This document shows positions 12,451 to 47,582 of a stretch of 55,005 nt of DNA, piece by piece. Numbering within the stretch: position 1 is the stretch's first letter; every line of letters starts with the position of its first letter. The position numbers were made by a program, and so were the translations under genes. This stretch comes from a virus: the IMG/VR virus record IMGVR_UViG_3300042090_002301, positions 1-55,005 of that record; one strand, written 5' to 3'. A model generated the notes under the pieces. That model was not told where the DNA came from. It was given only the letters and a program-made list of their open reading frames with translations, and made no database searches.

Positions 12451-13636
12451 ATATATACCAAAATGGGAGAGAGCTGAAAAAGTTCAGCAAGCAGCAAAAG
12501 CTGCAGTAGTTGAAGATGGAAGCCTTTTCAAGGTTCCTTTGACTGCTATCGTTAGAATCGAACCCTGCCCTAATTCCGATCGGTTAGACTTGGCGTATGT
12601 CTACGGCTTTCAAATCATTACACAGCGTGGCAAATATCGAGTGGGAGACCGTGTAATCTACGCACCCGTAGACTGCATCTTGCCCACCTGGCTGGAGTCA
12701 ATTTTGTTCCCATCTGACAGTAAGGTGAAGTTAACAAGAAGTAGAGTGCGTCAAATCCGGATCAGAAAAATTGCCTCGCAGGGATTAATCATCGATCCAC
12801 AAGACGTGGCATCCAAAGTCAACCCCGAATATCTACAATTGGAACAAAATTTGGCTGAGATCTTAGGGATCACGAAGTACGTGCCTCAATCCAGCGACAA
12901 AACTGGCCCCAGACTCCAGATGCCAAGAAATAAACCTTTGGAAAATGCTAGATTCCACAAATACGGCGGAATTGATCGGCTCCAATGGTACCCGAGCTAC
13001 TTTGATGGCCAAGATGTTGTAATTCAAGAGAAACTTCACGGATCGTGTTGCAGGTCCAGTTATGCTAGGACGGTCCCGAATACTCTGTGGAAAAAGATTC
13101 TCAAGTTCTTCGGGAAACTTCCGGCCTACGAATATTGTTGGGGCTCAAATAATGTCCAACTACAGCATAGACCGAACAATAAGGGTTTTTATGGAAAGGA
13201 TATTTACAAGGAAGTTTTGGAAAAAGTAGGCGCTTTTAGTAAGCTGAAACCAGGAGAGACAATTTTTGGTGAGTTGATCGGAAGAGGCGTGCAGGCCAAC
13301 TACACTTATGGTCACGAAGAACATCATTTCGTTTTGTTCGACGTGAAGGTGGAAAGAGAAGACGGCTCACAAGAATACCTAGATCCTGAACAGGTTGAGG
13401 CCTATGCTAGAGAGCGCGGATTCGACTTTGTGCCTGTTTTATATAGGGGCGTTTTCAATGCTGCCCTAGCCAAGGAGCTATCCATGGGCCCCAGCATATA
13501 CTGTCCTAAGGAAAAGGTTAGAGAAGGCGTTGTGATAAAGGCTAGGACTAATTATTCGAATGCGTCGAGTAAGAAGGCGCTCAAATTAATCAGCGAAATT
13601 TATTTAGATGATCACACAAATAGTGATGATCATTGA
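12443..13636 (+). CDS. RNA ligase (DRB0094/Rnl-type)
   Basis: ATP-dependent RNA ligase of the nucleotidyltransferase superfamily. Motif I EKLHGS holds Lys 197, the expected adenylation site. GELIGRG follows near 280, and EGVVIKA provides motif IV. An extra N-terminal domain of about 150 residues (VPLTAIVRIEPCPNSDRLD..., RVGDRVIYAPVD) looks like the OB-fold that precedes the ligase domain in the Deinococcus DRB0094 family. With the adjacent PNKP it can seal broken RNAs such as tRNAs cut by host anticodon nucleases, as T4 Pnkp/Rnl1 do; that target is inferred. Confidence 0.9.
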   Translation: MFEYIPKWERAEKVQQAAKAAVVEDGSLFKVPLTAIVRIEPCPNSDRLDLAYVYGFQIITQRGKYRVGDRVIYAPVDCILPTWLESILFPSDSKVKLTRSRVRQIRIRKIASQGLIIDPQDVASKVNPEYLQLEQNLAEILGITKYVPQSSDKTGPRLQMPRNKPLENARFHKYGGIDRLQWYPSYFDGQDVVIQEKLHGSCCRSSYARTVPNTLWKKILKFFGKLPAYEYCWGSNNVQLQHRPNNKGFYGKDIYKEVLEKVGAFSKLKPGETIFGELIGRGVQANYTYGHEEHHFVLFDVKVEREDGSQEYLDPEQVEAYARERGFDFVPVLYRGVFNAALAKELSMGPSIYCPKEKVREGVVIKARTNYSNASSKKALKLISEIYLDDHTNSDDH

Positions 13637-13651
13637 GGGAATCTTAATACA

Positions 13652-14002
13652 GTGAAGATCATAATCGCAGGTTCCCGGGACATCTGGTTGCAGCACGATG
13701 AACTCTTTGAGATCATTGACAAATTTGGCATCCTTTATGAGATAGAGGAGATCGTCTCCGGTTGCGCTTCGGGCATAGATTCTAGCGCCATAGAGTTCGC
13801 CAAACGATACAAAATACCCTTAAAGCGTTTCCCGGCAGATTGGGAGAAGTACGGGAAGCTCGCTGGTCCCAGAAGGAACCGGGAGATGGCAGCTTACGCG
13901 GATTGTCTTTTGCTTATTTGGGATTCAAAAAGTCCCGGATCGAAAAATATGAAAGCTAGGATGCAAGGACTTGGAAAACAAATATTTGAGGTTGTAAAAT
14001 AA
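13652..14002 (+). CDS. SLOG-family (DUF2493-like) protein
   Basis: GTG start after GAGGGAA. Opens with KIIIAGSRDIW and contains SGCASGIDSSAIEFA, KRFPADWEKYG and AGPRRNREMA. These are the Rossmann-type motifs of DUF2493/SLOG proteins, which sense or process nucleotide ligands. The C-terminal LLLIWDSKSPGSKNM also fits. Length 116 is normal for the family. It follows the RNA ligase with a short gap and may take part in nucleotide signalling or repair; substrate unknown. Confidence 0.85.
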   Translation: MKIIIAGSRDIWLQHDELFEIIDKFGILYEIEEIVSGCASGIDSSAIEFAKRYKIPLKRFPADWEKYGKLAGPRRNREMAAYADCLLLIWDSKSPGSKNMKARMQGLGKQIFEVVK

Positions 14003-14003
14003 C

Positions 14004-14186
14004 GTGTGTAATATTTGCTACGCTTTAGAAAAAGAACAATTAACTCGCAAAGAAGCCGATAGCGCTTTCAGGGAAATGCTGCTCGTAAACGGAGAGTACG
14101 CCGAAGAAAGCGAGCACTATCTGGATGCGGGGCTTGAAAATCTGAAGAAAATGATAGACGAGTCTAAGGATGAAAAAGGAAATTAA
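14004..14186 (+). CDS. Hypothetical helical protein, 60 aa
   Basis: GTG start after a GAGG. N-terminal CNIC pair, then a charged helical segment rich in Glu and Lys. No family recognised. It overlaps the next peptide start by 17 bases. Confidence 0.6.
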   Translation: MCNICYALEKEQLTRKEADSAFREMLLVNGEYAEESEHYLDAGLENLKKMIDESKDEKGN

Positions 14187-14268
14187 GCAAAAATTATTTG
14201 CAGTTGCAGTTTGGAGTACCGTTCTACTGTTGATGTTTTGGAGCTTGGCGGAAAGAAGTGCATCGTGA
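14170..14268 (+). CDS. Small membrane peptide, 32 aa
   Basis: MKKEIKQK followed by a hydrophobic run (LFAVAVWSTVLLLMFW) and a short polar tail. The GTGA overlap of its TGA with the deformylase start supports it, since nearly every neighbour is coupled this way. Function unknown. Confidence 0.5.
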   Translation: MKKEIKQKLFAVAVWSTVLLLMFWSLAERSAS

Positions 14269-14747
14269 AAGTTTTACAATTTCCAAATCCATTCCTGTCC
14301 ACCGCTACCTATGAAGTTAGAGTTTTTGGCGAAGAGCTCAAAGTGTTGTTAGATTCGATGTATGAAACTATGCTAGAGGAGAAGGGCATTGCACTTTCTG
14401 CGAATCAGGTCGGTTTATTGCACAAAATGTTCGTAATGGATGGCCCCGACGGTAGGATGAATATCGTCAATCCTGTAATTGTAAATAAGTCAGTAAAATC
14501 TGCCAACATTAAAGAAGGATGTCTGTCCGCCAAGGGCACCTTTGTTTTGGTTCCTTCCAGGGTCGAATGGATTCAAGTCGAATATGAGGACGAAAAGGGT
14601 GGACAGTATTCAGCAGTTTTAAAAGGAATTCACGCCGTAGCCTTTCAGCATGAATGCGATCATTTGGAAGGCAAAAGTTTCATGTCCGACAAAAGCATCC
14701 CGGCACGCGTAAGAAAGCCCTTGCTTAAGAAGTGGGGTCTCAAATGA
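14265..14747 (+). CDS. def: Peptide deformylase
   Basis: Removes the formyl group from N-terminal formyl-Met. The three metal and active-site motifs are present: motif 1 GIALSANQVG (residues 41-50), motif 2 EGCLS (Cys 86) and motif 3 QHECDH (His 129, Glu 130, His 133). Motif 1 is unusual: bacterial enzymes have GLAAxQ where this has ALSANQ. GTG 14265 gives a normal N-terminus (MKVLQFPNPFL) and overlaps the preceding peptide. Phage deformylases presumably process phage or host proteins during infection, here perhaps the many short proteins of this block. Confidence 0.92.
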   Translation: MKVLQFPNPFLSTATYEVRVFGEELKVLLDSMYETMLEEKGIALSANQVGLLHKMFVMDGPDGRMNIVNPVIVNKSVKSANIKEGCLSAKGTFVLVPSRVEWIQVEYEDEKGGQYSAVLKGIHAVAFQHECDHLEGKSFMSDKSIPARVRKPLLKKWGLK

Positions 14748-25840: not shown

Positions 25841-25880
25841 TGATATACATAGTATAAAGGAACTCAATCTTTAATATATG
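25841..25880 (+). promoter_or_regulatory. Putative late signal: TGATATA plus AATCTTTAATATATG
   Basis: TGATATA (25841-25847), a TATAAA at 25853-25858, then the 15-base element 25866-25880 ending in the ATG of the giant wedge gene. The 18-base spacing between TGATATA and AATCTTTA equals that at 16944-16985. Confidence 0.5.
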
Positions 25881-28800
25881 CCAAGCCCCACATCAAATGT
25901 CCCAGTAATACTTTCATATGAACAGTACGTCGCAGACATGCTCAGTGCGTATGGCTCAGCGATCGGGGTAAACGATTGGAATATTGGCGCAGTAAATTTG
26001 AATTTTTTCCAAACCGTCGCACTAACTACGGCACGCGCCTCCGGCGATTTACTTCAAGTCTTAAATCTTTATAGCGTTCAGCGTGCTACCGGCGATGCCC
26101 TCCAAAGACTTGCTCTAGAATACGATATCAATCCTGGCCAGGCACAAGAAGCTTCCGGTCTAGTGAATGTCTACGATACCTCTTTTACGAAAATTTCGAC
26201 CAACGTCTATTCTGGCACTCCGGCACCAAACGTTGGTTCCACAGTGATTAACGTATCGAATGCTGGCGCATTTCCTGCTAGTGGGGCGGTTTATTTAGGT
26301 CGCGGCACGCCCGATGTAGAAGGCCCAATCTCGTACGCGACTCCTCCGGTTCAATTAGGATCTTATTGGACTATCACACTTTCAACTCCGACCACTAAGT
26401 ATCATAACTTGGGCGAAACAGTCATCCTAGCGCAAGGTGGAAATAGACCCGTCGCTGCCAATGTGATTGTTGTTTCTCCCGGAATTGGAATTTCTCCCTC
26501 AATTCAGTATGGTGTGGTTACCCAGGCCGTCATCCTGGACGGTGAAACCGAAGTAGATAATGTTCAAGTCCAAGCCTTAACGCCTGGAAGTTCGGGCAAT
26601 GTTCCCGCTAATAGCGTCACACAATTTGCCAGCCCTCCTTTTACGGGAGCTACCGTCAATAACCCTCTACCATTCACTACCGGTGCGGACTCGCCAACTG
26701 AACTTCAACTTCGTACGCAGATTCTCAACGTTCTCGCCTCTCAAGGCCTTGGAACAGCCACCGCCGTAGAAGCCGCCGTATTGGGCGCAACCGCGACCGA
26801 GTCCACTGGCATCGTTGACACGGTTGTCTCCGATTCACTGGTGAACAATACCAACGGTACCGCCACCCTTTACATCGATAACGGCAATGGATATGAAGCT
26901 ACCTACCAAGGTGTGGCACTGGAGTCCATAGTGGACAGCGCTCTGGGCGGAGAACAATTTTTTCAATTACAAACCGGTGGCAATCAAGCCCCGGTCGTAA
27001 AAGCATTCCTTAAAACAGTTCTGGCTGAACCTTACGCACTGGTTAGTGGGGATACTTTAGCAGTTTCTGTTGGCGGAGTAGTAACTCAACATACTTTTTC
27101 TAATAGCGATTTTGTTTCCCCTGGTTATGCAACAGCATACGAAGTTACAGCCTCCATTAACGCAGATACTACCCTTAATTTCGAAGCTACCACATCCGAC
27201 GATGGTACCTATGTAATTATTACTGGTATCGCCGATTTCGATACGGATACCATTTTTATAACGGTTCCCACTACCACTAGAGGGGATGCTGCAACTTTGA
27301 TGGGATTCCCAACCAGCACTGAAGAAACTCTTCGTTTATACTTAAACGGCATTCCGCTCACACAAGACGGCATAGCAGCTTCTGTGTTCACGCAAGCACA
27401 ACAATTATGGTCGAATACGATCGCCAATGGCGACACCTTGGTCCTCTCGGTAGATGGCACCGCCCCCATCACTTATACGGTCACCAATGCTGATTTCATA
27501 GCCACCGGACTTTATACAAGTGTCAACAATAACAACACCCTCACCTCCTGGGCTTTGGTATTTAATAATCTTTTAACTGGAGTGACTGCTGCGGTAGTTG
27601 GAGATCAAATCGAACTGTCCAGTAACTTAGGCGCAAATGATAGAGCCAACGTCACCATCGGCGGCTCCTCTACGCTGGTCACCAAAGGAATGTTCTCTGC
27701 TACACTGGGACTTTCTTCTCAGGGGGCCGCTTCCCAGTTTACTTTGGATAGAAACACAGCTCAGTTTGAACTGGTGACCCCTCTAGTTGCTGGCGATGTG
27801 TTATCAGCTGGAAGCGCCGCTACTGCTGGTTACGTAAAAAGTACGGTTTTCGCAAGTAATAGTGTAACCTTGCCCGCCGCAGCCCACGTTTGGATTTTAA
27901 CTGATACGCCCGGAACACTCATAAACACCGGAGTTATCGCAAACACCCTTTTGAGCGTCAGCACGCCTAGCACGAATGTAATCCGATATACTTCCAATGT
28001 TCCTTCTGCTTTCAGCAATGTTTTGCCCGGAGATTACGTAATCGTTTGGTCCGTAGAACTTCCGGCTACTGACAGATTTGAGGGAAGGGTACACGCGGTC
28101 ACTTCCACCACTTTAGATATCTTAATAACGCCGGCAGAGTGGGCCGCCGTAAATCTTATCTCTGATGTGACTTTTCAAAATGGTTTCGTGATTTTAAGAA
28201 GCAACTTGGCGCCGCAGAGGTTCGAGGTTCCTGCTGGAACTTTGACATTAGATCAAGTAGCAGAAGATTTGCAACCACAGACGGAAGAATTAGTATTCTC
28301 TGTATTCCTAGAAGAGCAGCTGGTTATAACCACGAACACCTTGGATTCCTCGGGCTCTGTGCTGATTGTTACCTCCGACACGAACGGGATATTTTTACAG
28401 TTGATGAGCGGAACATTGGGCCAAAGTCAGCAGTCATTATTGGCTTACTATGACAGTCGAGAAACGACTGCCGATTTCCCGCTATTCATACATTCCACTT
28501 TTTCTACGCCTGAATATGCTAATCCGCCCGACAGCTTCATCTATGATTTGGGCACTACTGTTGTTTTAGATCCTACGCATCCTAATAATTTGATCTGCAT
28601 GCTCCATCCTTACGGCGGCATAAATGATGCGCAAGATTTTGGAGAGACTCCCCAGATCTCTTCTCTTTCAGGGAACGCGGTAACGATAGCCATCGTCCCT
28701 CCACCGCCCGGAGTCCCAGCGCCAGATCCAGTCATGCACAGGGTTAGAACCGTAGATAGATTTTACGTAGGAAGCCCTTTGCAATTTGGATACGGCGACA

Positions 28801-31800
28801 CGATGGTTTCCATCGTAGATGGAAATGCTATCAGTCAAAGTTATACGATTCCTATGTACCGCGATGCCCTGACCAACACTACAGATGTGGTCAATGCTAA
28901 TAACTTCAACGCATACGATGCCGATGCCGGCCCTACTACGCCCTTTAGCACTTATTTTAGTAACTTCAACTTCGCTAACTTTAAAGTTTACATGCAGGCT
29001 AAGCACGTACTTAAGCCGACTCCTTCTGAGACTGCCATACTATACAGGGCTGCACAATGGGGTTCTAGCGGAGAACAGGTTACGGTTGAGTATGTTTATC
29101 CGACTTCCGCCAATCAGGCTATTGGTAGCAGCGTAGTTGTTGGCGAAACAGTAGCCGTAGACATTAGTTTAGCTAGTGGGGCAGTAGCATCCACTAATAT
29201 CTCCGCCTCTACCATATGGAACGTTATAGTTACGCCAGGAGTTCCTAGTTCTACCATTGAGCAGGTAACTTACGTTTGGGCAGGTTCGTACATTTTTACA
29301 GTTACTTCGGCCAACGCGACTGCCGGAGCCATATACTCAAACAACGGACAGAATTTTTTAGTCACAACGACGATCGTTGCCGGCACCACTTTGTTCACCA
29401 CCGGATTGCAAAATGCGCCCGCTGCCTCTGGCACCTTGACAAAGGTCAGCGGTACAGGCGATGCAACAATCACTTTCTCCTCTTACACTTTTGCTGGCTT
29501 TGGAACCAATCCTATGCTGACCTTGTCCGGCGGAGAATATGTAAATATCTCCACCCAGACTGGATTTTTTACCGCCAATACTGGTATTTATAGAGTATCT
29601 ACTCAGGCAGGCTATACTCCAACTGCTACTAGTTTTTCCGTACAGATGCCCAATGGTCAAGCGATAAATCAATCAGGGGCATCTACGTTAGTTAATGGAG
29701 CCATTTCTTTTTATGAACCGTCTCCTACTACCGCAGCTCAAGTCGTAACTTACGTAAATGCCAACCTTTCCTCCTACGTCTCTGCAGCTTTGGTAAATGA
29801 TGGAGGACTAAGTGGCGCTGGCGTAATAGCTCTAAGTACTTACGAAGATAGCGGATTCACTATACAAAATGTGCAATTGCTAGACGGCGTCAATTGGATC
29901 TTGACCAGCAATGTAAACAGTTCTCCGCAGTTTGTCTTGAAACTCCCGCTTTCTTATCCATCGGCTGGTCCATGGTATGCGTTTAACAATGGCGAGCCCC
30001 TCCGATTGGTACCGACCACCATCGAGCAAGTTTATCGTTTCTTAAATGTTCTAGCGGTCACAGGTTTAACCACAGTAGGAGCTGTTGGTTATGTGGACAG
30101 AGGAACGAGTCTTCTACTCGCAACGGACACTCTAGGAAGTGCCGGATCAATTCAAATTGTAGGCGGTTCCGCTAATCTCGTTAGCCTTCCCGTTTTGAGT
30201 ACTGCAACCAACATCAACAATAATTTAACCGAGGTTTCCGTAGATAGTGTGGCAGCCCAGCCAATCACGAGTGATCAATGGTTTAGACTTCAGGCGGCGC
30301 AAACTCAGATCAAGGTAACTGGTTTCAGCGATAATACCGACGTTACCGTCATAGGGAGCGATCCGACGACTGGAGAATCAACTATTGTAATATCCAATAG
30401 CAATCTGACGCAGAGGAATTTTGGAAAACCGAGAAGTCAAATTAGAACGGAAGGCGATACTTTCAGAGTGGAAAACCAAGGAAAATTGGTATGCGTGAGT
30501 TGGACTGGCGTCGGTACTAACCCGATGTTTGAGAGCGCTCTTAGCTTCAATGATTCCTTCGGTGGAACCGCCAATATAGTCCCCATAGCAGGCACTAGCG
30601 ATGCACAAATTACTATTACTTCTGGAAGCACGAACTTTACCGAACTGTCAATTGGGGATTTAATAACGATTTCTGGCGGTAGCATCCTAGGAACGGCTGG
30701 CACGTTTGCCATTTTGGCAGCTTCTGCGATAACCAATACCGGTTCTAGCATTCTCACTGGCAACTTAGGTATCGCTCCCGGAACCTCCATCACCGGATTT
30801 CCTCCCGGAACTTATACTGGCACAGAAGATATAAACAATAGCGCATCTATTAGTGCTCAAGCTGATGCTTTGGCTGCCTATAATAGTTTGAATGCGATGA
30901 CTTCTACGCCTATTTCTGCCGTCTTAGATGGTCAGACTTTAACTCCCGGCGTATATAGCACTGGCGCTGCCAGTTTAGCTGCTAGCGGTAACGCCACCAT
31001 GACTTTTAATGGTGCTGGTATCTATGTTATTCAAATAGCGAGCACTCTGACCACCGGCTCTGGCGGTATTCCACTTATGATATTGACCGGCGGAGCAACC
31101 GCTGCAAACATCTACTGGGTGGTTGGTAGCTCTGCTACGATTGAGTCCGGACACTCTGGAACTTTTGAAGGCAATCTCATTGCCCATACCAGCATCACGT
31201 CTACGTCCCCCTCCTCTGTGAACGGTAGTTTGATCGCATTAAATGGTGCTGTCACTGTGAGTTCGCCCTCAAATATAACTGCGCTTGGCGCTAACGTCCT
31301 TGCCGATAGTAATCAGGGCACTTTTGTGGTTACCGGCGTATCGAGCAATGGCACGGTAATACAAATCACCAATCCTAATGCCACCATGCAAACTGGAGCT
31401 ATCTTTTCTGTTGGGAATTTTTCTGCTACGAGCGGCGTGTCAGAAGGTGACACTGTGATAATGGGAGCGCCATTCGCATCGCTAAACCAAGGACAATTTA
31501 GAGTCATCAGAGAGTACAATAATAGTTTTTGGATTGAAAATCCAGATGCAGTAGAAGAGGAAGTCAATCTCGCCTACAATCCAGTAAGCCTTGGATTTGA
31601 TGGAACTACTGAGTTCAATGTGACCATTGTCAACAATCTGCTTCATCTAGAGTGGAACGGAGTGGGAACTCAGCCAACCCTAAGCAATGCTGAGGTCGGA
31701 GATATCATTACGTTAGGAACTGACTTTGCCCTTGACAATCAAGGTAGTTTCATGGTAGTTGACTCTAGCGTTGGGCTGCCTCAGATAACAGAGCTTTTCT

Positions 31801-33038
31801 TGCCTGCAGGATCTGCTTTCGCATTAAGTGGGGCCGGCACATATTTTCATATTTACTCGGCTGGTAATGCTACGACCTATTATGTTTGGTTCAACGTTAA
31901 CAGTAGTAATACAGATCCCGCTCCAGGCGGTACCGGTGTACAAGTCGCAATTTTGAGCGGCGACACTGCTACCAACGTGGCGTCCAAGACAGCTTTGGCA
32001 TTGACTGGAATAGGGGGCTCGCCGTTTATCGCGGTAGCTTCAGGCAATACAGTTACCGTAACGACTTCCGGAGATATAGAAACTAATCCCACAGCGAACG
32101 TGAACGTCCCTGCCCCGTTTGAGGTTGAAACTTTACAATCGGGTACTAGAACCTATCTCGAAGTGATTGATCCTGTAGCAGTACCCCAATCTGATATCTT
32201 AATAACTAATGTCTTGCAAGATCACAGACCCCAGATGCAGTTTTGGGAGTATGAAGCTACAGTTCCTGGGGACCTTTTCGTTGCCACTGGAAGTATTTTG
32301 ACTTTAGCCAATGCCGGCTCATACCCCGTTGTACAGGTTTTGAATTCCACCACGGCTATCGTAAAAGGAAACATGACGAGCGTTTCTGATATTAATTTAA
32401 ACAATAATACCAATTCTGTATATGTGGAAGAGGGCGTTCCTTATTCAGGATACAAGCACGTTTTTATGGTTTCTGCCCAACCGGGCGCTCCCACGAGAGA
32501 TTTGGTTGTTTTTGATACGACCGCCCAGTACAACAAGATTGATCCCTCGGCCAGCGTAGAGATGACATCGGTTGGTAAACTAAATTTCAACACGATACTT
32601 TTGAATGGATTAGATGCTTACAGTTATAATACAGGGCTAATTCAGGTTGCGAATCAAATCGTTTATGGAGATCCTAGAGATCCCATCACGTATCCGGGCG
32701 TCGGTGCAGCTGGCGCAGACATCTTCATTAAGGCGCCATTAGTATTGAATGTGAGTGTTGCCATAGATATTAGACTCGCGACCGGAGCGCCATTCCCGGC
32801 GATTCAACAGCAAGTGCAATCGAACGTGGCTGCCTTGATTAATTCTAATCCAGTTGGACAATCGATCGATATTTCTTCCATCGTGAGCACCGCTCGAACT
32901 ATTCCAGGGATCACCTCGGTTGCAATCTCTAGCCCGCTGTATAGTCCTACAGATGATTTGATTCAAGTAACTCCTGCAGAGAAAACGTTTGTTCTAAATC
33001 CTGCTACTCAGATTAGCGTTTCGCTAATCGGGAGCTAG
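25878..33038 (+). CDS. Giant baseplate wedge protein (gpJ/gp6-like) with ice-binding-like insert
   Basis: 2386 residues, many times longer than typical gpJ (about 300) or T4 gp6 (660). Residues 1-330 are J-like: NFFQTVALTTARASGDLLQ, GDALQRLALEYDI, LRTQILNVLASQGLGTATAVEAAVLG. The C-terminal 130 (FIKAPLVLNVSVAIDIRL, DISSIVSTARTIPGITSVAI) is the J-type end. Between lie about 1900 residues of Ser/Thr/Gly-rich beta modules, several repeated (GVGTNP...GD units near 1150-1250, 1540 and 1950). A DUF3494 ice-binding-like domain lies at about 1602-1806. The insert probably projects outward from the baseplate rim as an adhesive arm. Confidence 0.85.
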   Translation: MPSPTSNVPVILSYEQYVADMLSAYGSAIGVNDWNIGAVNLNFFQTVALTTARASGDLLQVLNLYSVQRATGDALQRLALEYDINPGQAQEASGLVNVYDTSFTKISTNVYSGTPAPNVGSTVINVSNAGAFPASGAVYLGRGTPDVEGPISYATPPVQLGSYWTITLSTPTTKYHNLGETVILAQGGNRPVAANVIVVSPGIGISPSIQYGVVTQAVILDGETEVDNVQVQALTPGSSGNVPANSVTQFASPPFTGATVNNPLPFTTGADSPTELQLRTQILNVLASQGLGTATAVEAAVLGATATESTGIVDTVVSDSLVNNTNGTATLYIDNGNGYEATYQGVALESIVDSALGGEQFFQLQTGGNQAPVVKAFLKTVLAEPYALVSGDTLAVSVGGVVTQHTFSNSDFVSPGYATAYEVTASINADTTLNFEATTSDDGTYVIITGIADFDTDTIFITVPTTTRGDAATLMGFPTSTEETLRLYLNGIPLTQDGIAASVFTQAQQLWSNTIANGDTLVLSVDGTAPITYTVTNADFIATGLYTSVNNNNTLTSWALVFNNLLTGVTAAVVGDQIELSSNLGANDRANVTIGGSSTLVTKGMFSATLGLSSQGAASQFTLDRNTAQFELVTPLVAGDVLSAGSAATAGYVKSTVFASNSVTLPAAAHVWILTDTPGTLINTGVIANTLLSVSTPSTNVIRYTSNVPSAFSNVLPGDYVIVWSVELPATDRFEGRVHAVTSTTLDILITPAEWAAVNLISDVTFQNGFVILRSNLAPQRFEVPAGTLTLDQVAEDLQPQTEELVFSVFLEEQLVITTNTLDSSGSVLIVTSDTNGIFLQLMSGTLGQSQQSLLAYYDSRETTADFPLFIHSTFSTPEYANPPDSFIYDLGTTVVLDPTHPNNLICMLHPYGGINDAQDFGETPQISSLSGNAVTIAIVPPPPGVPAPDPVMHRVRTVDRFYVGSPLQFGYGDTMVSIVDGNAISQSYTIPMYRDALTNTTDVVNANNFNAYDADAGPTTPFSTYFSNFNFANFKVYMQAKHVLKPTPSETAILYRAAQWGSSGEQVTVEYVYPTSANQAIGSSVVVGETVAVDISLASGAVASTNISASTIWNVIVTPGVPSSTIEQVTYVWAGSYIFTVTSANATAGAIYSNNGQNFLVTTTIVAGTTLFTTGLQNAPAASGTLTKVSGTGDATITFSSYTFAGFGTNPMLTLSGGEYVNISTQTGFFTANTGIYRVSTQAGYTPTATSFSVQMPNGQAINQSGASTLVNGAISFYEPSPTTAAQVVTYVNANLSSYVSAALVNDGGLSGAGVIALSTYEDSGFTIQNVQLLDGVNWILTSNVNSSPQFVLKLPLSYPSAGPWYAFNNGEPLRLVPTTIEQVYRFLNVLAVTGLTTVGAVGYVDRGTSLLLATDTLGSAGSIQIVGGSANLVSLPVLSTATNINNNLTEVSVDSVAAQPITSDQWFRLQAAQTQIKVTGFSDNTDVTVIGSDPTTGESTIVISNSNLTQRNFGKPRSQIRTEGDTFRVENQGKLVCVSWTGVGTNPMFESALSFNDSFGGTANIVPIAGTSDAQITITSGSTNFTELSIGDLITISGGSILGTAGTFAILAASAITNTGSSILTGNLGIAPGTSITGFPPGTYTGTEDINNSASISAQADALAAYNSLNAMTSTPISAVLDGQTLTPGVYSTGAASLAASGNATMTFNGAGIYVIQIASTLTTGSGGIPLMILTGGATAANIYWVVGSSATIESGHSGTFEGNLIAHTSITSTSPSSVNGSLIALNGAVTVSSPSNITALGANVLADSNQGTFVVTGVSSNGTVIQITNPNATMQTGAIFSVGNFSATSGVSEGDTVIMGAPFASLNQGQFRVIREYNNSFWIENPDAVEEEVNLAYNPVSLGFDGTTEFNVTIVNNLLHLEWNGVGTQPTLSNAEVGDIITLGTDFALDNQGSFMVVDSSVGLPQITELFLPAGSAFALSGAGTYFHIYSAGNATTYYVWFNVNSSNTDPAPGGTGVQVAILSGDTATNVASKTALALTGIGGSPFIAVASGNTVTVTTSGDIETNPTANVNVPAPFEVETLQSGTRTYLEVIDPVAVPQSDILITNVLQDHRPQMQFWEYEATVPGDLFVATGSILTLANAGSYPVVQVLNSTTAIVKGNMTSVSDINLNNNTNSVYVEEGVPYSGYKHVFMVSAQPGAPTRDLVVFDTTAQYNKIDPSASVEMTSVGKLNFNTILLNGLDAYSYNTGLIQVANQIVYGDPRDPITYPGVGAAGADIFIKAPLVLNVSVAIDIRLATGAPFPAIQQQVQSNVAALINSNPVGQSIDISSIVSTARTIPGITSVAISSPLYSPTDDLIQVTPAEKTFVLNPATQISVSLIGS
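30680..31295 (+). other. DUF3494 ice-binding-like domain, copy 1
   Basis: Encodes TAGTFAILAASAITNTGSS, LTGNLGIAPG, ITGFPPGTYTG, a long helix (AQADALAAYNSLNAM) and ISAVLDGQTLTPGVYS. It ends with IYWVVGSSATIESG and GSLIALNGAVT. This is the order and sequence of the DUF3494 beta-solenoid fold of ice-binding proteins. Two related copies are in the fibre gene at 37819. Confidence 0.85.
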
Positions 33039-37818: not shown

Positions 37819-40800
37819 ATGAGCGTCCAACGCAGAGTAAATTGGATCAGCGAACAAATGGTGTCGGTACCAGATCTTCGTATGATCGAAAGCGCCGCAT
37901 CTAATGATTGGGATCAGTATGTTCAGGGCGTATTAACAGGCACGTCCCAAGGCTACATAGTTCGTGGATTCGAAATTCTGATGGCCAATGCCATTGGGAA
38001 TTCAGCATCAAATCTTCAGCTTCAGGTAGATCCGGGTTCTCTAATGCACATCTTGGCGAGCCAATCCGGCACCGTCTACATGATTCCGCCGGGTACGCCT
38101 CCCCAGCAGCTAAATTCAGCAACCAATTCTAATGTAACCGGTTCTTTTTCTCCTAATTCCATCAATTACATTAGCATCGATTACATTCGTTTTCTAGATC
38201 CTTCTACCGATGCCCAAGTCTACATATGGGACCCAACCTCAGATACTACTACCACCGAGAATGCTCCTCGTGGACTAATTTTAACGTACACCTTAAATAT
38301 TTCGACCGTTCCGCCTACTGGCAATCTGCTTCCTATAGCAGCCGTTCTCACTGACGGCGGTAACAATGTCCTAAGCGTCTCCGATGAACGCTGGCTTTTC
38401 TTGCGCCTCGGCACAGGTGGAACAAATCCTAACCCATTTTATACTTATCCTTGGCCAGAGGGACGCGATGAGAATCCCTACACGTCCACCTCCAATAGCA
38501 CAGACCCTTTTAGCGGCGGCGACAAGGCTTTTCAAGATCTAAAAGACTGGATGAACGCCGTCATGTCTTCTATTGGGGAGATCAAAGGCGGTACCTACTG
38601 GTATTCAGCTACTAGCGCTGACAATCTAGTTTATTTACGAGAAGATGCCATCAACACCGTGATCACCGGTGCCGGCAACATCTCTCATGGCATACTTCCA
38701 AATTCTATTCCCGTTTTAATTACCACAGGGAATATCGCAGCTAGCGGCGGCGGAACTCTCGGCGTAGCTGGCGGATATGCAATTTTAGCTGCTACTTCGG
38801 TAACCAATTCTGGTTCTAGCATTCTTACTGGTAATCTAGGAATTAGCCCTGGGACATCGATAGCCGGCTTTCCTCCCGGAACGTATACCGGTACGGAAGA
38901 TATTGACAATGCCGCCTCTGCCGCTGCACAAGCCGCTGCTTTGTCTGCCTATAATACTTTACACGCACTCTCTTCTACTCCCATCAGTGCCATCCTTGAT
39001 GGTCAAACCTTAGCACCCGGAGTTTATACAGAATCTTCCGGCACATTCAACTTGGCCGCTTCTGGAAACGGCACGCTAACTTTGAATGGTGCAGGTACCT
39101 ACGTCTTTATTTGTTCTAGCACATTGACAACCGGTGCTGGCGGTATACCAACTATTACCTTAGAAAATGGTGCGACTGCCGCAAACGTTTACTGGGTCGT
39201 TAGTTCTTCAGCTACAATTAATTCTGGACATGCTGGCATTTTCCAAGGTAGCATACTTGCCCAAGATAGTATAACGGATACCATCGGTGGGACCGTGAAT
39301 GGATGTCTACTCGCCCTGACCGGCGCTGTTACTCTCAGTGCCGCTTCGAACGTAAACGCGGTAGGTTCTAGCGGCGCTAACCAAATTTCTTCCTTGGCTT
39401 CTACGATTGGCATTGCAGTTGGACAATATGTATTTGGTACAGGAATTCCAATCGGCACTACTGTTTTAAGTATTGCGGGAAACACTGTATTTTTATCTGC
39501 AAATGTGACAGCCACTGCCACCGGCGTTAATTTTTCATTCTTTGATCCTAGCGTAATCACTCAACCTGGGCAAATTAACTGGGACCTACCCATCTACGTG
39601 GATGTCATAGGGTCTGCGTTAAGCTATGAAATACTGGCTAACCCAAGTTCCGACTATATTACGTTGGCCAATGACCAGGTGGCGTACATTACCTTGGTGC
39701 GCGGTCAGACCATTATCCCTAATTTAATTTTTACTAATGGAAGTGCGATAGTTACTTCTGTTGGCGCGATATCTTGGACCACCTCTTTAGTTCCCGGCGA
39801 TTTCATCAGGCTTTCTACGGACACCGACTCCGGTTACTATGAGATAGAGACTGTCAATTCCGTATCACAAGTAACACTAGTGAACTCGTTCACGGAAGCA
39901 AGCACCGGCGCCTCTGGCGCGCAGGCACTCTATGCTTTTGGTTCTTACTCTGCCGTCGCAACTCCCAGTACTAGTAGAAATATTTACATTGCAGATCGTG
40001 CCGATGTTCCTATTACCGCCAATACTTTTTGGTTATTCTTAAGAGAAGACAATGGTGGTTCGCCTAAAGTATACATCAGATTCTTGGGAGCCGAACTAGA
40101 TAATGGAACTGATGTAGAAGTAGGCGGCACGACTCCTGAACAATTGTTGCAATACATCGGAGCTCCAAATTTCGCCGCAACTAAACCACAATACGTAGAC
40201 GCTCTGAGTCCAGGCTCTGTTCCACAAATAACTAGCATCACAGTTGGCGCCGCTTCCACTATGGCTTCTGGAGAATATTTCTACATTTATTCTTCGGCGA
40301 GCGCCAGAACGTATGCGGTTTGGGTCAACTTAGATGGCGGTGGAGTTCAACCCAACGCGCCCGATGCTACAAATTATATCGAATGGGACATCGCTACCGG
40401 CCAAACTGCCGATCAAACCGCCGCATCCTTAGTTGCGGCCCTAAATTCTACTCTTAACGGAGATTTCGCAGCTACTGCCAGCGGAGACGTCGTCACTGTT
40501 ACCAATAATTCTGCCGGTATATCTAGCGCAGCTTACAATTTTTCTGTAGGACTAGGTAGCAGCGTTTTAGGTACGGCAGCCACTTATGCCATCTTAGGCG
40601 CTTCAGCTGTGACCAGCACCGGATTCACAATTTTGACGGGCAATTTAGGCCTTAGCCCCGGAACCTCAATAACTGGATTCCCACCTGGAGTTTATTCTGG
40701 AGTAGAAAATATCGCCAATGGGCCTGCGGTTCTAGCGCAATCCGCTGCCCTATCTGCTTATAATACGTTGGAAGCGATGACTCCCACTCCAATAAGTGCG

Positions 40801-41976
40801 ATTCTTGATGGCCAAACGCTGACCCCTGGCGTTTACAGTGCCGGCGCCCCTCATTTGGCATCTTCCAGCGCTGGGACTTTAACTTTTAACGGCGCTGGAA
40901 CTTACGTCATACAGTGCGGCACTACTCTAACCACCGGTGCTGGGGGCGTACCGACAATGATCTTGACTGGCGGAGCAACTGCTGGCAATATTTTCTGGGT
41001 TGTTGGTTCTTCTGCGACAATTAATTCCGGATTCGCTGGAACTTTTGAAGGTAATATCATTGCCTCTGCCAGTATCACCGATACTCTCGGTGGAACCGTT
41101 AACGGTAGTCTAATCGCACTAAACGGTGCGGTGACCTTGAGTGCAGCAGCTGATGTGAACGCAGTAACTGGTAGCGGTTCATCTTTTGCCATCTCTATTA
41201 CTCAACTTGGCACTGGCGTAGGAAACTATTTCATCCAGGATGGTGAAAATTTAACATTAGCCATCAAAATACTAGATGAATCCTTAGGTGAGATAGAAGC
41301 CGTCCTCGAAGGTCCTAATTATGAAGAAACGGTAACGATCGTTGCTTCTGGAGCTGCACCTCCTGTCACTTTAAATGGACCGATCTCTCCAGGAACAGAT
41401 ATCACGCTTCCCAATAATACTAGAACCGGGAATGTCTTTCAGTATTTTGAGGTAAACTCCGCAAAATTAGAAGTATTTTTGAATGGACAAGAATTGCTCG
41501 TGGGAGAGGATTACACGGAAGTTGGTGTACCAGGAGCGCTTAGTAATCAAATTCAGATCCAGATCGAACTGGTCGTTGGAGATATCCTAGAATTTAGAAT
41601 CAATAGCGGCGGCGGCAGTGGTCTCAGTGGCGTTGAAGGTCCCGCAGGTCCGTCAGGTCCGGCAGGTCCTCCTGGCGCAAACGCTGTTGGCGGTCCAGTC
41701 AATATTTCGACTAAGACATCTAATTACTCCGTACTTCTTACTGATAACGTGCTAAATGCCAACTGCACTAGTGGAGCCATCACATTCTCTTTACCTGCCG
41801 CATCCGCATCGACAGGGAGAGTTTTCTTTTTTAAGAAAATTGATTCCTCATTGAATGCCATGATTATCCAAGCTGCCGGTTTCGATTTAATCGATGGTGC
41901 ATCCAGCGAAACGACCATCATTCAGTATCAGTCTTACATGTTAATCAGCGATGGCTCATCGTGGTGGAATTATTAG
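37819..41976 (+). CDS. Tail fibre with two ice-binding-like domains
   Basis: 1385 residues. N-terminal 290 residues form a probable baseplate-attachment part (VNWISEQMVSVPDLRMIE, LFLRLGTGG). Residues about 310-517 and 914-1120 are two DUF3494 domains, separated by beta modules. A module at about 818-905 (EYFYIYSSASARTYAVWV) also occurs in the giant wedge protein. Residues 1271-1290 form a short collagen-like run (GPAGPSGPAGPPG), which usually makes a trimer stalk. The final 90 residues form a tip domain (TFSLPAASASTG, MIIQAAGFDLIDG, ISDGSSWWNY). Likely receptor-binding or adhesive fibre. Ribosome site AAGGA. Confidence 0.85.
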   Translation: MSVQRRVNWISEQMVSVPDLRMIESAASNDWDQYVQGVLTGTSQGYIVRGFEILMANAIGNSASNLQLQVDPGSLMHILASQSGTVYMIPPGTPPQQLNSATNSNVTGSFSPNSINYISIDYIRFLDPSTDAQVYIWDPTSDTTTTENAPRGLILTYTLNISTVPPTGNLLPIAAVLTDGGNNVLSVSDERWLFLRLGTGGTNPNPFYTYPWPEGRDENPYTSTSNSTDPFSGGDKAFQDLKDWMNAVMSSIGEIKGGTYWYSATSADNLVYLREDAINTVITGAGNISHGILPNSIPVLITTGNIAASGGGTLGVAGGYAILAATSVTNSGSSILTGNLGISPGTSIAGFPPGTYTGTEDIDNAASAAAQAAALSAYNTLHALSSTPISAILDGQTLAPGVYTESSGTFNLAASGNGTLTLNGAGTYVFICSSTLTTGAGGIPTITLENGATAANVYWVVSSSATINSGHAGIFQGSILAQDSITDTIGGTVNGCLLALTGAVTLSAASNVNAVGSSGANQISSLASTIGIAVGQYVFGTGIPIGTTVLSIAGNTVFLSANVTATATGVNFSFFDPSVITQPGQINWDLPIYVDVIGSALSYEILANPSSDYITLANDQVAYITLVRGQTIIPNLIFTNGSAIVTSVGAISWTTSLVPGDFIRLSTDTDSGYYEIETVNSVSQVTLVNSFTEASTGASGAQALYAFGSYSAVATPSTSRNIYIADRADVPITANTFWLFLREDNGGSPKVYIRFLGAELDNGTDVEVGGTTPEQLLQYIGAPNFAATKPQYVDALSPGSVPQITSITVGAASTMASGEYFYIYSSASARTYAVWVNLDGGGVQPNAPDATNYIEWDIATGQTADQTAASLVAALNSTLNGDFAATASGDVVTVTNNSAGISSAAYNFSVGLGSSVLGTAATYAILGASAVTSTGFTILTGNLGLSPGTSITGFPPGVYSGVENIANGPAVLAQSAALSAYNTLEAMTPTPISAILDGQTLTPGVYSAGAPHLASSSAGTLTFNGAGTYVIQCGTTLTTGAGGVPTMILTGGATAGNIFWVVGSSATINSGFAGTFEGNIIASASITDTLGGTVNGSLIALNGAVTLSAAADVNAVTGSGSSFAISITQLGTGVGNYFIQDGENLTLAIKILDESLGEIEAVLEGPNYEETVTIVASGAAPPVTLNGPISPGTDITLPNNTRTGNVFQYFEVNSAKLEVFLNGQELLVGEDYTEVGVPGALSNQIQIQIELVVGDILEFRINSGGGSGLSGVEGPAGPSGPAGPPGANAVGGPVNISTKTSNYSVLLTDNVLNANCTSGAITFSLPAASASTGRVFFFKKIDSSLNAMIIQAAGFDLIDGASSETTIIQYQSYMLISDGSSWWNY
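38746..39370 (+). other. DUF3494 ice-binding-like domain, copy 2
   Basis: Encodes GYAILAATSVTNSGSS, LTGNLGISPG, IAGFPPGTYTG, ISAILDGQTLAPGVY, VYWVVSSSATINSG and ALTGAVTLSAAS. Close in protein sequence to copies 1 and 3, but DNA differs at many third positions, so the duplication is old. Confidence 0.85.
40558..41180 (+). other. DUF3494 ice-binding-like domain, copy 3
   Basis: Encodes TYAILGASAVTSTG, LTGNLGLSPG, ITGFPPGVYSG, ISAILDGQTLTPGVYS, IFWVVGSSATINSG and GSLIALNGAVTLS. It lies just upstream of the collagen-like stalk of the fibre. Confidence 0.85.
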
Positions 41977-41985
41977 GAGTTTATA

Positions 41986-44298
41986 ATGGGATATGATCCA
42001 GTAGCTACATTGTTAACATCGGTGCCCGACGTACTGAATATGGTTCAGACTGCTACCCCGGCCATTCTACCCGCCGTAGGCTATGATTTATTGTATTTCA
42101 AGTCTGATGATATTCTGTACAGGCTTAATCATGCAGGCGTGGAGACTACAATTGGTTCTGGCAGTGTAAGCTCTGTCTCTGTAGAATTCGCCAATGGATT
42201 CGCAGGTACAGTGGCGAATCCAACCACTGCACCTGCGATCACTATCAGTACAACCGTAACCGGCATCTTGTACGGCAATGGAACTTCAGTAGCCGCCGCC
42301 GTTGCTGGTAACTTTCCAACGCTTAATCAAAATACTACCGGCACCGCTAGCAATATAACTGCGACTTCAAATTCAACCCTGACGACTTTGAGTGCCTTAA
42401 GCTTACCTACGTCTCAGCTATTTGGCAGTATTTCTCTAACTTCTCAGGTTTCCGGTATCTTGCCAGTCATCTATGGCGGAACTTCAGTAAGTTCGATAAC
42501 TACTGCGCCTACGGCTACCTCTTGGGCTGGCTGGGATAGTAACAAAAATCTTTCCGCGAATAATTTTCTTGAAGGCTTTACAACTACGGCAACTGCCGCT
42601 GGCACAACTGTACTGAGCGTCAGTTCTACCGAGTTACAATCCTTCACAGGCACTACTACTCAAACGGTCCAATTACCAGTAGTCACAACGCTCGTCAGTG
42701 GTCAATCCTATACGATCATCAATAGTAGCACAGGAATAGTAACTGTAGAAACTTCTGGAAGCAACGTTCTGCAGGCTATGGCCTCTGGAACACAACTGGT
42801 TGCGACTTACATCGGCGGTTCATCGAGCGGAACAGCATCCTGGAGTTGGACATATAATTTTGAGAATCCAGGGGGCGGATTCGCCACCGTCACCCTAAGT
42901 AATTTAACTACTACTGCCATAAACACGAACTTGCTCTTTAGCCCCGACAACACCTATAATATAGGCGCTTCTGGCGCAAGTAGGCCGGCCAATGTTTACG
43001 TTGGTACAAATGTAATTACTCCTGAAGTACAAGGTGGAAGTTCCGCTGGCGGAAATCTCACCCTAAGTTCTACTTCTAATTCTTCCAAAGGTTTTATACA
43101 AATTTTGAATAGGGACGGATTCTTCTTAGATGCAGATCCCACTAACTCATTTGCTTCTGATGTTAGTGCTGACGCCGGATATGGCGTATTCTGCCTAACT
43201 CAAACTTCCAATGCCGGATATTTCTTTCTCGAAGCATCTAATACGACCCCAAACATGGGGATTTTCCACGCAGCAGGAACATTTGCTTCGCCAGCAGTGG
43301 CAGCTGCTTCCACAACGATATTCACTTTTAATGCACATTCTTGGGGTGGAAGCGGCTCTTACACTTCCGATCAGGTCTTATTGGGCCAACTATCCTGGAC
43401 AGTAGTCAACGGAATCTCCACCAACTTTGGAACTAGACTAGATCTGCTTGTAACGCTAAATGCTAACGCAAATTACAACAGTCTTAGGTTAGATAGTCTT
43501 GGTCAAGTAGTCATAAATCCAACTTCTTCGATTTCTACCGGCGCAAATTTAATTTGGGGATTAGATGCTTCGGGAAATATTGGTACGGTAAGTAACAATC
43601 GTCCAGGCTCAATTTATGCTCAAGATTTGATTCAGGTGGGCAATACCGGCGCAGGCGTGATGTTAGGCGGAGGAACCGGCGGTTCCATTGGAACCGTTGA
43701 AAATAATGGAGTCGGATTCAGCTTCGATTCTTCTGGTCAAATTATTACGTCTACCAGAGCTATCAATATGCAGACTTACAATGTGTATTGGACAGATGGT
43801 TTTGGAAACATAGGACGCTCTGGCGGCGGCAGCAATGGTTATGCACGACCTTTTTCTATCGCAGCATACAACTCTTTCCAATTAGCTGGAAATTCTCCGA
43901 ATGCTCCCAATGACTACCAGCCAACTTGGCAAGTCATCGCATTGCAATCGAATGGAGTGCCGCTCACAACGACCAATGCCACAGTCACTACCATTTATAC
44001 TTACGCGATGGGATTTGAAAATAACACCGTTATAGCATTTAAGGCAAAAGTAGTCGCGCGACGAACGGATTCTGCAGACAGGGCCTATTTTGAAACAACG
44101 GCTGTTGCCTATCGAGAAGCTGGTGGAAATTTAGTAATTCAAAGTCAGACCATTGATTACGAGAGTGTTACGGCTACATCGTCAGCTTGGACGGTGAGTT
44201 GGACATCATCTACTACGTATCTAATGCTTCAGGTTACGGGTGCAGCAAGTGAAACGATTGATTGGAATGGAACCCTTGAAGCTTATTTGGTGCAATAA
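41986..44298 (+). CDS. Tail fibre protein
   Basis: 770 residues; a GGAG ribosome site precedes. The N-terminus is short, then the region about 60-165 (NGFAGTVANPTTAPAI, GILYGNGTSVAAAV, TLTTLSALSLPTSQL) is shared almost word for word with the next fibre. Around 200-290 a tip-like domain (TQTVQLPVVTTLVSGQSYTI) precedes a long beta section. NTYNIGASGASRPANVYVG and DLIQVGNTGAG strands recall phage fibre shafts. The C-terminus (TVSWTSSTTYLMLQVTG) is compact and beta-rich. Ends on an ATGA overlap with the next fibre. Confidence 0.8.
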   Translation: MGYDPVATLLTSVPDVLNMVQTATPAILPAVGYDLLYFKSDDILYRLNHAGVETTIGSGSVSSVSVEFANGFAGTVANPTTAPAITISTTVTGILYGNGTSVAAAVAGNFPTLNQNTTGTASNITATSNSTLTTLSALSLPTSQLFGSISLTSQVSGILPVIYGGTSVSSITTAPTATSWAGWDSNKNLSANNFLEGFTTTATAAGTTVLSVSSTELQSFTGTTTQTVQLPVVTTLVSGQSYTIINSSTGIVTVETSGSNVLQAMASGTQLVATYIGGSSSGTASWSWTYNFENPGGGFATVTLSNLTTTAINTNLLFSPDNTYNIGASGASRPANVYVGTNVITPEVQGGSSAGGNLTLSSTSNSSKGFIQILNRDGFFLDADPTNSFASDVSADAGYGVFCLTQTSNAGYFFLEASNTTPNMGIFHAAGTFASPAVAAASTTIFTFNAHSWGGSGSYTSDQVLLGQLSWTVVNGISTNFGTRLDLLVTLNANANYNSLRLDSLGQVVINPTSSISTGANLIWGLDASGNIGTVSNNRPGSIYAQDLIQVGNTGAGVMLGGGTGGSIGTVENNGVGFSFDSSGQIITSTRAINMQTYNVYWTDGFGNIGRSGGGSNGYARPFSIAAYNSFQLAGNSPNAPNDYQPTWQVIALQSNGVPLTTTNATVTTIYTYAMGFENNTVIAFKAKVVARRTDSADRAYFETTAVAYREAGGNLVIQSQTIDYESVTATSSAWTVSWTSSTTYLMLQVTGAASETIDWNGTLEAYLVQ

Positions 44299-47200
44299 TG
44301 ATTGAAGTTATCGGTTCAGATGTATTTTTAAATTTGCCCACAATCACTACGCCGCCGGTTGCCCCCCCAGCAGGATTCCTAGATTTATACTTTAAATCCG
44401 ACGGCAACCTGTACACGTTAAATTCTTCCAGCGTTGAATCTTTATTGGGTTCTAATCTCTATCTACCCTTAACTGGTGGAACTTTAACAGGTGCCTTGAC
44501 AGTACAAGCCCCTATAACCATAGCAACCTCTACGGGTAGGGGTATACAATTGGTGTTTGGAGATGAATCCAATGACCACTTATCTTTATCAAATCCAACT
44601 TCAGGAAGCTTATATCTAGCTATCTTTCCCCCCAGCCTTACCGGCCAGTACAACACTGCTATAGGCTTTGATGCTTTACCCGCCTTAACCAGTGGAGCAT
44701 CTAACACTGCTTTGGGTACTTTTTCTGGGGTAGCCCTCACGACTGGTAACTTCAATACTCTGTTTGGTTATAATAATGGGGTAGCCCTAGTATCTGGTTC
44801 CAATAACATGATAATGGGCAGTAACTCTGGGAATGCTCTAACTTCAGAATCAGATAATATCTTTCTCGGATTTAATGCAGGGTTGTCATCCACAGGGGGA
44901 CAAAACGTTTATATTGGTAGCTTGGCAGGGGCTGTCAATACGTCTGCAGCTAACCCCGGAAATGTTTATATAGGCTATCGTGCTGGGTCTCTCGATTCCA
45001 CCGGGCAGAACAATGTTGGCATAGGGTTTGAATCCCTTAGCCATGCAAATGGCAGTTACAACACGGGTGTGGGTTATCAATCAGGACAAATATGTACTGG
45101 AACTGAAAACACCTTCCTTGGATATAACGCTGGCATGAGTTTGACGGCAGGTAACAACAATATATACCTAGGGTTTGCCGCAGCGTATTCACAAACAGGT
45201 GGTTCCTTCAACATTGGGATTGGCAATATAGCTACCTTTAGCTCCAATTCAGTGTCTAATGAACTACAGATTGGTAGCTCCTTTGGTCCCATACACAACG
45301 CCTTTATCGGTAGCGGTACAACCTCCGCAACCCTAGCGGCCTTGACAATCAATGCTACAGGTGCACAAGGTACCAACACTTCTGCCGCTGCCTCTGTCCT
45401 TAATATTGCCGGGGCTAAGGGGACTGGCACGGGTGCCGGTGGCGCGGTCGCGATTCAAATAGCTCCAGCGGGAACTTCTGGCAGTTCTGCCAATTCATTG
45501 GTCACCGCTTTAACGGTAGATACAAATGGGAATTTATTGCTCGCTCTAGGCTATATCCAATCGCCTACACTGACTACTCCAAGTTCTGCGCCCCCTTCAG
45601 GCTTTTTAGATTTGTACTTTAAGTCCGATGGTAATTTATACTCTTTGAATTCGTCCAGCGTAGAGACCCAACTCACTGGTGCAGGGGGTGGCGGCTCAGT
45701 CACCTCCGTCTCCGTAGTATCAACCAACGGATTCGCGGGAACCGTGGCTACTGCTACGACTACACCGGCCATTACTATTTCGACTACTGTAACTGGCATT
45801 TTATATGGCAATGGGACTTCAGTAGCGGCTGCTATTCCTAGCAACTTTCCAGTACTTAATCAAAATACTACGGGAACTGCTGCCAATATCACAGCGACTT
45901 CCAATTCTACTCTCACCACACTTTCGGCGTTGAGTCTTCCGACGTCTCAATTATCCGGCAGTATCTCATTAACATCTCAAGTTTCGGGCGTTTTGCCAAT
46001 AGCTAACGGCGGCACTGATAACGGGTCTCTCGCTGTAACTGCCGGCGGTGTCATCTATACTGATGGAACTAAGTTCCAAAACACCGGCGCGGGTACGTCT
46101 GGTTATATTTTACAAAGTAATGGTTCCAGCGCCCCCACCTGGATCGCCAATACCCCAACATTTTCTGGTTTAACCCAGTATGGAGCGATCTATGCTAGCA
46201 CCTCTACTACTCTAGCATCCACCGCTGCTGGCACTGCGGGATATCCATTAATCGCTAATTCCAGTGCGGCTCCTACCTTCCAACAATTAAATATTAGTTC
46301 GGCAAGTGCCGCAGTAACCGGCGTACTATCAGTGGCCAATGGAGGCTCTGGTTCATCCAGCTTTACGCTAGGATACGTACTCTTAGGGGATGGAACCAGT
46401 AGTTTCGGGACCGCAAATCCCGGTTCAACCGCTGGATATGTGCTAGCCAGTAACGGTTCTGGTAACCCTTCTTTTCAGGCAGTCAACGTTGCGTTGGCTA
46501 CAGGAACGTTGGCCGTTACAGCGGGTGGAACAGGGAATAGCACCAATCCACAGTTTGAAGTTTTGGTAGGCGCCGGAAATGGCTCTCTGTACTCAGTACC
46601 AACTGGCACTAGTGGCCAAGTGTTGGTGAGTTTGGGTAGTGGAAATAATCCCAGCATGCAGACTATCCCTGGGAATGCCACCGTTCTTAAGACTCCTACG
46701 GTTCAATCCATTAACTGGGTGCCAGTAGCATTTACTGTTACTGCATTAACAGTGCAGACCGTTGTCGGTGCAGTTTACACTAGCGGAGGTTTCACTTATA
46801 CGGTGAATGCCACCGCAAATATTGGTGCCACAACATTATATGCAAACGCAGTAGGAAACGGCAATCCATTGAGCTCTGGAAGTTTAGGAAAGTCTAGCGG
46901 TACAGGACAAACTACAATTGCGTACAGTGCTATCGCTAACGGTGGCGGTAGTCAAACTTACACTACTCCTTCAAGCCCAGCTCCTTTGTACATCAAGGTC
47001 AGAATAGTAGGACCTGGTGGTGGCGGGGGAGGAAGCGGAACATCTGGTGGCGCGGGAGGCGCCGGACTGGGTAGTACAGTATTCGGTGCTTCTGGTGCTT
47101 TCCAGGCAGGACCGGGCGCCGGTGGTGGTGCTGCAAGTCCTAGCACTATAGCAAATGGCGGAGCGGGCGGCGCTGTAACCGTGGGCACATTGACTGGTTC

Positions 47201-47579: not shown

Positions 47580-47582
47580 TAA

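Follow-up and report, generated by a model that had tools for sequence, protein, structure and literature searches.

DUF3494 ice-binding-like domains inserted in baseplate and fibre-like proteins of an uncultured phage and in tail proteins of its relatives

Introduction

DUF3494 is known as a secreted antifreeze or ice-adhesion domain of microbes. Solved ice-binding proteins of this family (PF11999, Ice_binding) include EfcIBP (6eio), AnpIBP1a (7bwx), FfIBP (4nu2), and TisAFP (3vn3), and the beta coils of the fold are ordered 1-6-5-4-3-2 (PMC7966756). The ice-binding positions on the B face have been described for AnpIBP, in which replacement of S153 or T156 by Tyr lowers activity to 17% (PMC7277481). 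In the MpAFP/MpIBP adhesin of the bacterium Marinomonas primoryensis, an ice-binding domain sits on a long surface structure with a proposed role in ice attachment (PMC3492233, PMC5014055).

On the viral side, PF11999 has been seen on three Arctic surface-microlayer viral contigs, where it was read as host-protecting auxiliary metabolic genes (PMC11515562). Large phages are also known to add optional accessory domains to their conserved tail proteins; in phage sheath proteins such extras are mostly of the Ig-like type and face outward from the tube, and a role in adhesion or in stabilizing the virion has been proposed for them (PMC9230969). We found no published report of DUF3494 in virion proteins in the open-licence PMC literature. 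The domains described here lie in phage virion proteins and represent the known DUF3494 family in a new structural role, together with a new circular permutant. Among cultured phages, the closest relative by the proteins that carry the domains is Myxococcus phage Mx1 (OR576727, 169,621 bp, circular).

Results and Discussion

A DUF3494 domain within a baseplate wedge protein

We analysed the linear IMG/VR record IMGVR_UViG_3300042090_002301, here called the window, which has 55,005 nucleotides and is a 55 kb fragment of a phage; its source is a bacterial virus known from metagenome sequence alone. An earlier note, made by reading the sequence, had placed a DUF3494 domain at 30680-31295 inside a gpJ-like baseplate wedge protein at 25878-33038. 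The features of this carrier are as follows.

25878..33038, + strand: carrier protein 1, baseplate wedge/gpJ-like, 2386 aa (PHROG_6, PF04865, Mx1 orthologue)
29289..29483, + strand: another exchangeable baseplate module, residues ~1138-1202, FTVTSANATAGAIYSNNGQ...DATITFSS
30678..31310, + strand: DUF3494 cargo insert, baseplate protein residues ~1601-1811 (PF11999, AF2/Foldseek, empty site in orthologues L127/L128)

Our searches upheld both the carrier and the domain. Carrier protein 1 matched PHROG_6 in a profile search (E-value 7.5e-14) and PF04865 at 27.8 bits (cut-off 21.1; E-value 1.9e-6), its N-terminal 860 residues had 39% identity to the annotated baseplate protein J-like protein of Mx1, and the genes adjoining it also gave baseplate-protein matches. 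The Pfam core of the domain (residues 1612-1795, window 30711-31262) falls within the interval that had been noted and scored far above threshold against PF11999, at 124.8 bits (cut-off 28.7; E-value 4.8e-36) over profile positions 1-203 of 208. A phmmer search of the PDB returned 12 matches, all of them ice-binding, antifreeze, or DUF3494 chains, the best being 6eio (2.9e-34); matches of this strength and uniformity mean that the assignment is not due to chance.

An AlphaFold2 model built from a 30-sequence alignment (pLDDT 92.1, pTM 0.89) predicted the fold that the earlier note had named as a check, a discontinuous beta-solenoid with a long flanking helix (residues 61-78 of the model). With Foldseek, all 31 PDB matches with E-values of 0.001 or less were DUF3494-type ice-binding proteins, one of them 7bwy (AnpIBP; TM 0.84, rmsd 1.9 Å). 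Like the solved family members, the window domain is of full length. Pfam and Foldseek returned DUF3494 matches alone and none to an Ig beta-sandwich; the MpAFP structure 3p4g gave no confident match to the model (Foldseek E-value 3.3).

Two further copies in a fibre-like protein

A search of the whole record with PF11999 found two more copies, both with near-full coverage (profile 1-204), bringing the window to three copies across two proteins with 68-71% pairwise identity.

37819..41976, + strand: carrier protein 2, fibre-like virion protein, 1385 aa (Mx1 and L123 homology, sequence)
38758..39348, + strand: second DUF3494, carrier protein 2 residues 314-510 (PF11999 E-value 3.1e-39 at 38782-39342)
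40567..41148, + strand: third DUF3494, carrier protein 2 residues 917-1110 (PF11999 E-value 2.4e-37 at 40591-41145)

Carrier protein 2 has a conserved N-terminal region of ~300 residues and is collagen-like over a stretch close to its C-terminus, and because this N-terminus is common to Mx1 and contig L123 and the collagen-like stretch is present, the protein appears to be tail fibre-like. Its homologue in L123 is of equal length with 82% identity across the first 294-300 residues, and there the second DUF3494 copy is kept (79% identity, dN/dS about 0.06). The Mx1 counterpart (41% identity over residues 1-270) has no DUF3494 copies. In a further contig, L122 (IMGVR_UViG_3300028800_000216), a close fibre homologue is split into frames of 916 and 444 aa, by either a frameshift or a sequencing error.

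In both carriers the DUF3494 copies are internal to long virion polypeptides (2386 and 1385 aa) and do not form stand-alone products. Both N-termini are weakly hydrophobic (12-residue hydropathy maxima of 1.2 and 1.1) and, as judged by hydropathy, are unlike the leader-like N-termini typical of bacterial DUF3494 ice-binding proteins; by inspection, the bacterial homologues generally start with leader-like or lipoprotein-like sequences.

Behaviour of the insertion loops in baseplate orthologues

We collected 22 contigs with the baseplate N-terminus, and DUF3494 was found in the baseplate protein of none of them (0/22), the ORFs of two (L138 and L139) ending before the DUF3494 site. At this position L127 and L128 have a loop of six residues, LPTTSN. 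The empty site reads LSIGDLLTVSG-LPTTSN-NGTFLVTG where the window has LSIGDLITISG-(insert)-NQGTFVVTG; with its flanks, the junction is NFTELSIGDLLTVSG-LPTTSN-NGTFLVTGVSDNG in these contigs and NFTELSIGDLITISG-(about 211 residues)-NQGTFVVTGVSSNG in the window. The baseplate protein of L137, with 73% identity over 1617 residues, has a different small module (YIFTVTAANATAG...) in the equivalent of the window's DUF3494 loop. This is a copy of the module type found at 29289-29483 of the window, which is also present in 58 viral loci; the 29289-29483 module itself is absent from orthologues L125 and L127.

Other homologous baseplate proteins have DUF3494 at other sites (L009/L204/L152/L162/L165; L004/L005/L006; L011, where it is permuted; and L201/L158), and those of L152, L162, and L165 have second copies near residue 930-1000. 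The insertion in L009 lies somewhat upstream of the window loop and our tree separates the two copies, so these insertions look independent.

The exchangeable ~65-residue module (FTVTSANATAGAIYSNNGQ...SGTGDATITFSS; seen in the window, L137, L034, L167, and L174) is present in some orthologues and missing from others, and we found no family name for it. In L167 and L174 DUF3494 is seemingly nested inside this module. A group of FN3-like plus DUF3494 proteins (L035-L039) has DUF3494 interrupted by an insert of ~60-90 residues (e.g., L035 residues ~170-265) that resembles the small NNGTFLV beta module whose loop holds the window copy, a case of reciprocal nesting.

Phylogeny and selection

Our maximum-likelihood tree was built quickly and several of its deep forks are weak, so we used only its starred groups. 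Most tail copies from Mx1-like carriers fell in a single phage-only cluster (63 rows, SH-aLRT 89), within which baseplate, fibre, and sheath copies were intermixed; the starred branches alone require no fewer than 7, 7, and 4 changes of label, respectively. The window baseplate copy clusters with the second fibre copy of the window (its third DUF3494 domain) and that of L123 (SH-aLRT 96), as do both copies within contig L201 with each other (SH-aLRT 99); these groupings suggest copying of DUF3494 between genes of one phage. The closest bacterial relative of the window domain has 48% identity at most, whereas phage copies reach 71-80%. The dN/dS values for DUF3494 were 0.06-0.17 with synonymous divergence near saturation, indicating that the domains are maintained as functional protein. 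We consider it very probable that the copies are an exchangeable module displayed on the virion, exposure being suggested by the nature of the carriers.

Tail sheath and other carriers in relatives

A second viral scan identified 154 stretches encoding DUF3494, and the viral loci we retrieved held 119 DUF3494 ORFs (95 once near-copies were removed). The carriers in these relatives were baseplate proteins (at other sites), fibres, tail sheath, and other likely virion proteins, and four records of 85-171 kb (G001-G004) had DUF3494 in three or four different proteins each. The sheath cluster comprised 16 DUF3494-bearing ORFs of ~890-990 residues. All six that were tested matched PHROG_279 tail sheath (E-values to 4.5e-28), and a profile from 15 of the proteins matched the solved phage sheath 5li2 (E-value 4.5e-6). 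A model of one sheath ORF, of moderate confidence (pLDDT 66) and used as support only, was matched by Foldseek to the sheath of phage 812 (E-value 7.4e-16) and also to the ice-binding protein 6eio (rmsd 2.6 Å over 145 columns).

Unlike the family members known as ice-binding proteins, DUF3494 is circularly permuted in 15 of the 16 sheath proteins, with the helix-to-last-coil part leading, followed by a short linker and then the native N-terminal part. Sheath homologues without the insert occur in five other large contigs (716-727 aa), and their match skips from profile position ~164-175 to ~369-402. Given the coil order 1-6-5-4-3-2, the first and last coils adjoin, which would explain the tolerance of this fold for both insertion and permutation. 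The phage's own tail-sheath gene was not found within the 55 kb window.

Comparison with cultured phages

Three different queries found no DUF3494 in 50,697 cultured phage records. Mx1 is like the window phage and its relatives in having homologous baseplate J, fibre N-terminus, and sheath, and unlike the window phage in that no PF11999 match was found anywhere in its genome. The Mx1 sheath (L271 1483-4362, 959 aa) has other sequence in the slot where the relatives have the permuted DUF3494. This sequence appears to be a small GD..IP...Y.V beta module in duplicate, which suggests that these sheaths hold a general cargo slot.

The relationship to Mx1 is the one pointer to Myxococcus as a possible host. 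When the baseplate N-terminus was searched against 195 Myxococcota genomes we found no relevant match (one marginal match covered 94 residues).

The B face

We mapped 24 outward B-face positions from AnpIBP onto all DUF3494 copies. In the window copies 92% of these positions were Ala, Gly, Ser, or Thr and 71% were Thr or Ser, with 3% charged and 0 aromatic, giving a flat face of small residues free of bulky side chains; the remainder of the window domains had 53% A/G/S/T and 21% T/S (Fisher p 7e-17, a descriptive value as the positions are non-independent). The rows of Thr, Ser, and Ala that the earlier note had proposed to look for are thus present. Across the mapped copies a Thr ladder extends over strands b1, b6, b5, and b4 (88-100% Thr), b3 being less strict. 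The 64 phage tail copies had a similar face (90% A/G/S/T, 68% T/S, 1% charged, 0% aromatic), and the positions critical in AnpIBP are conserved in them, with Ser in 61/64 at the S153 equivalent and Thr in 64/64 at the T156 equivalent.

Judged from its residues, the B face of the phage copies has the look of an ice-binding face. The 45 bacterial homologues show the same pattern (84% A/G/S/T, 57% T/S, 5% charged, 0% aromatic), and for this reason the pattern by itself is no proof of ice as the ligand and may reflect the fold.

Proposed role of the tail modules

The explanation we tentatively prefer, at a little under an even chance for the whole, is that the three DUF3494 domains of the window are cargo modules on the outside of the phage tail with an ice-binding B face. 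Each module is inserted in frame into a virion protein or between its domains and would fold independently, and every copy of the carrier would display one or more DUF3494 domains. The modules spread among the genes of one phage and among phages, and some lineages have a circular permutant. The displayed flat B face, with its Ser/Thr/Ala rows and Thr ladder, would most likely bind ice or its ordered water layer, and such binding could hold virions at ice-liquid boundaries and/or limit freeze-thaw damage to the tail. For the ligand itself, ice or an ice-like surface is close to an even call that falls slightly on the doubtful side. The tail sheath of T4 has about 138 copies, and if the sheath copy number is T4-like, the sheath-bearing phages would display well over a hundred domains. 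The position of the modules is presumably exterior, since it is their carriers that make up the surface of the tail and since the extra sheath domains described in published work face outward (PMC9230969).

On this evidence the exterior of these virus particles probably bears patches that bind ice or another surface. The idea of a surface- or crystal-binding arm had been raised in the earlier note; that idea still fits, and the domain extends beyond the baseplate, with two copies in the fibre-like protein and copies in the sheath of relatives. A wider possibility, which we view with slightly more doubt, is that of an ice-tropic virion, in which large contractile-tailed phages would armour the baseplate, fibre, and sheath of the tail with a mobile, partly permuted ice-binding module. 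If so, virions would bind ice and would either persist through freezing or concentrate at those ice-water boundaries that hosts inhabit.

The main rival to ice binding is weak adhesion to other surfaces, a plausible alternative that we nevertheless think somewhat improbable. On this account the modules would be generic and would help virions cling to soil surfaces, host cells, or extracellular polymer, a job like that proposed for the Ig-like domains of other large phages, and ice would play no part. Typical glycan-binding faces differ from the aromatic-free and nearly uncharged B face of the phage copies, which speaks against such adhesion, and the option of polysaccharide binding in the earlier note gains little support from exposed B-face positions that lack aromatics and are about 1-3% charged. 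In addition, ice is the sole ligand reported for the DUF3494 family in the literature we found. The family is nonetheless widespread outside cold-dwelling taxa, with relatives in Streptomyces and Curtobacterium, among other organisms that are not known to live on ice, so it need not always act on ice. Phage DUF3494 also shares insertion loops with unrelated small beta modules and nests with them, PF11999 has been listed among bacterial adhesive domains (PMC8286594), and the mostly Ig-like extra domains of sheaths offer a precedent for an adhesive or stabilizing role. The DUF3494 modules resemble those additions in being optional and differ from them in fold, which for a beta-solenoid with a flanking helix has an ice-binding precedent.

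It is unlikely that the modules lack a specific ligand and serve as structural spacers or stabilizers, or that they persist through recombination as nearly neutral cargo. Many baseplate orthologues do manage without DUF3494, the insertion sites vary freely, and the same loops take other small domains; however, strong purifying selection acts on the DUF3494 domains, the exposed Thr ladder is near-invariant, which fold stability alone need not require, and the fold has been gained repeatedly and independently in several carrier proteins. Very improbable is an auxiliary gene product that shields the infected host cell from freezing. That is the published interpretation of the three Arctic viral contigs (PMC11515562), and secreted DUF3494 proteins do protect in bacteria. 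Here, in contrast, the domain is within baseplate, fibre, and sheath polypeptides with no evident signal peptide, whereas bacterial homologues generally have leader-like N-termini. An ordinary baseplate or fibre protein is not known to be secreted before lysis. We therefore rejected a stand-alone host-protection gene for the window, as its DUF3494 copies are internal to virion proteins. The chance that a bacterial DUF3494 gene and a phage gene were joined in an assembly chimera is close to nil: the record is a metagenome contig, but the reading frames run through the junctions uninterrupted, the independent contig L123 has the fibre arrangement as well, comparable fusions occur in dozens of contigs, and the best bacterial match falls well below the identities among phage copies. 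The recurrence in independent contigs and the E-values led us to reject both a chimera and a chance match.

With DUF3494 in several tail genes, these viruses have a plausible means to bind ice or other surfaces, and one can test directly where viruses reside in freezing soils and ice and how they survive there. The accessory-domain idea for phage tails is widened from Ig-like domains to a new fold. As a caution, the carrier protein should be inspected before viral PF11999 matches are called auxiliary genes; the carrier proteins of the Arctic PF11999 genes (PMC11515562) deserve a look for tail-protein context.

Other genes of the window

Three more fibre-like proteins follow the DUF3494-bearing fibre at 41986-48815. 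The first two have in common a 152-residue stretch (72% identical), and the second and third have long glycine-rich C-terminal regions. Matches to PHROGs identified polynucleotide kinase, RNA ligase, and peptide deformylase genes at 11503-14747, and in Mx1 too a peptide deformylase gene is near the tail genes.
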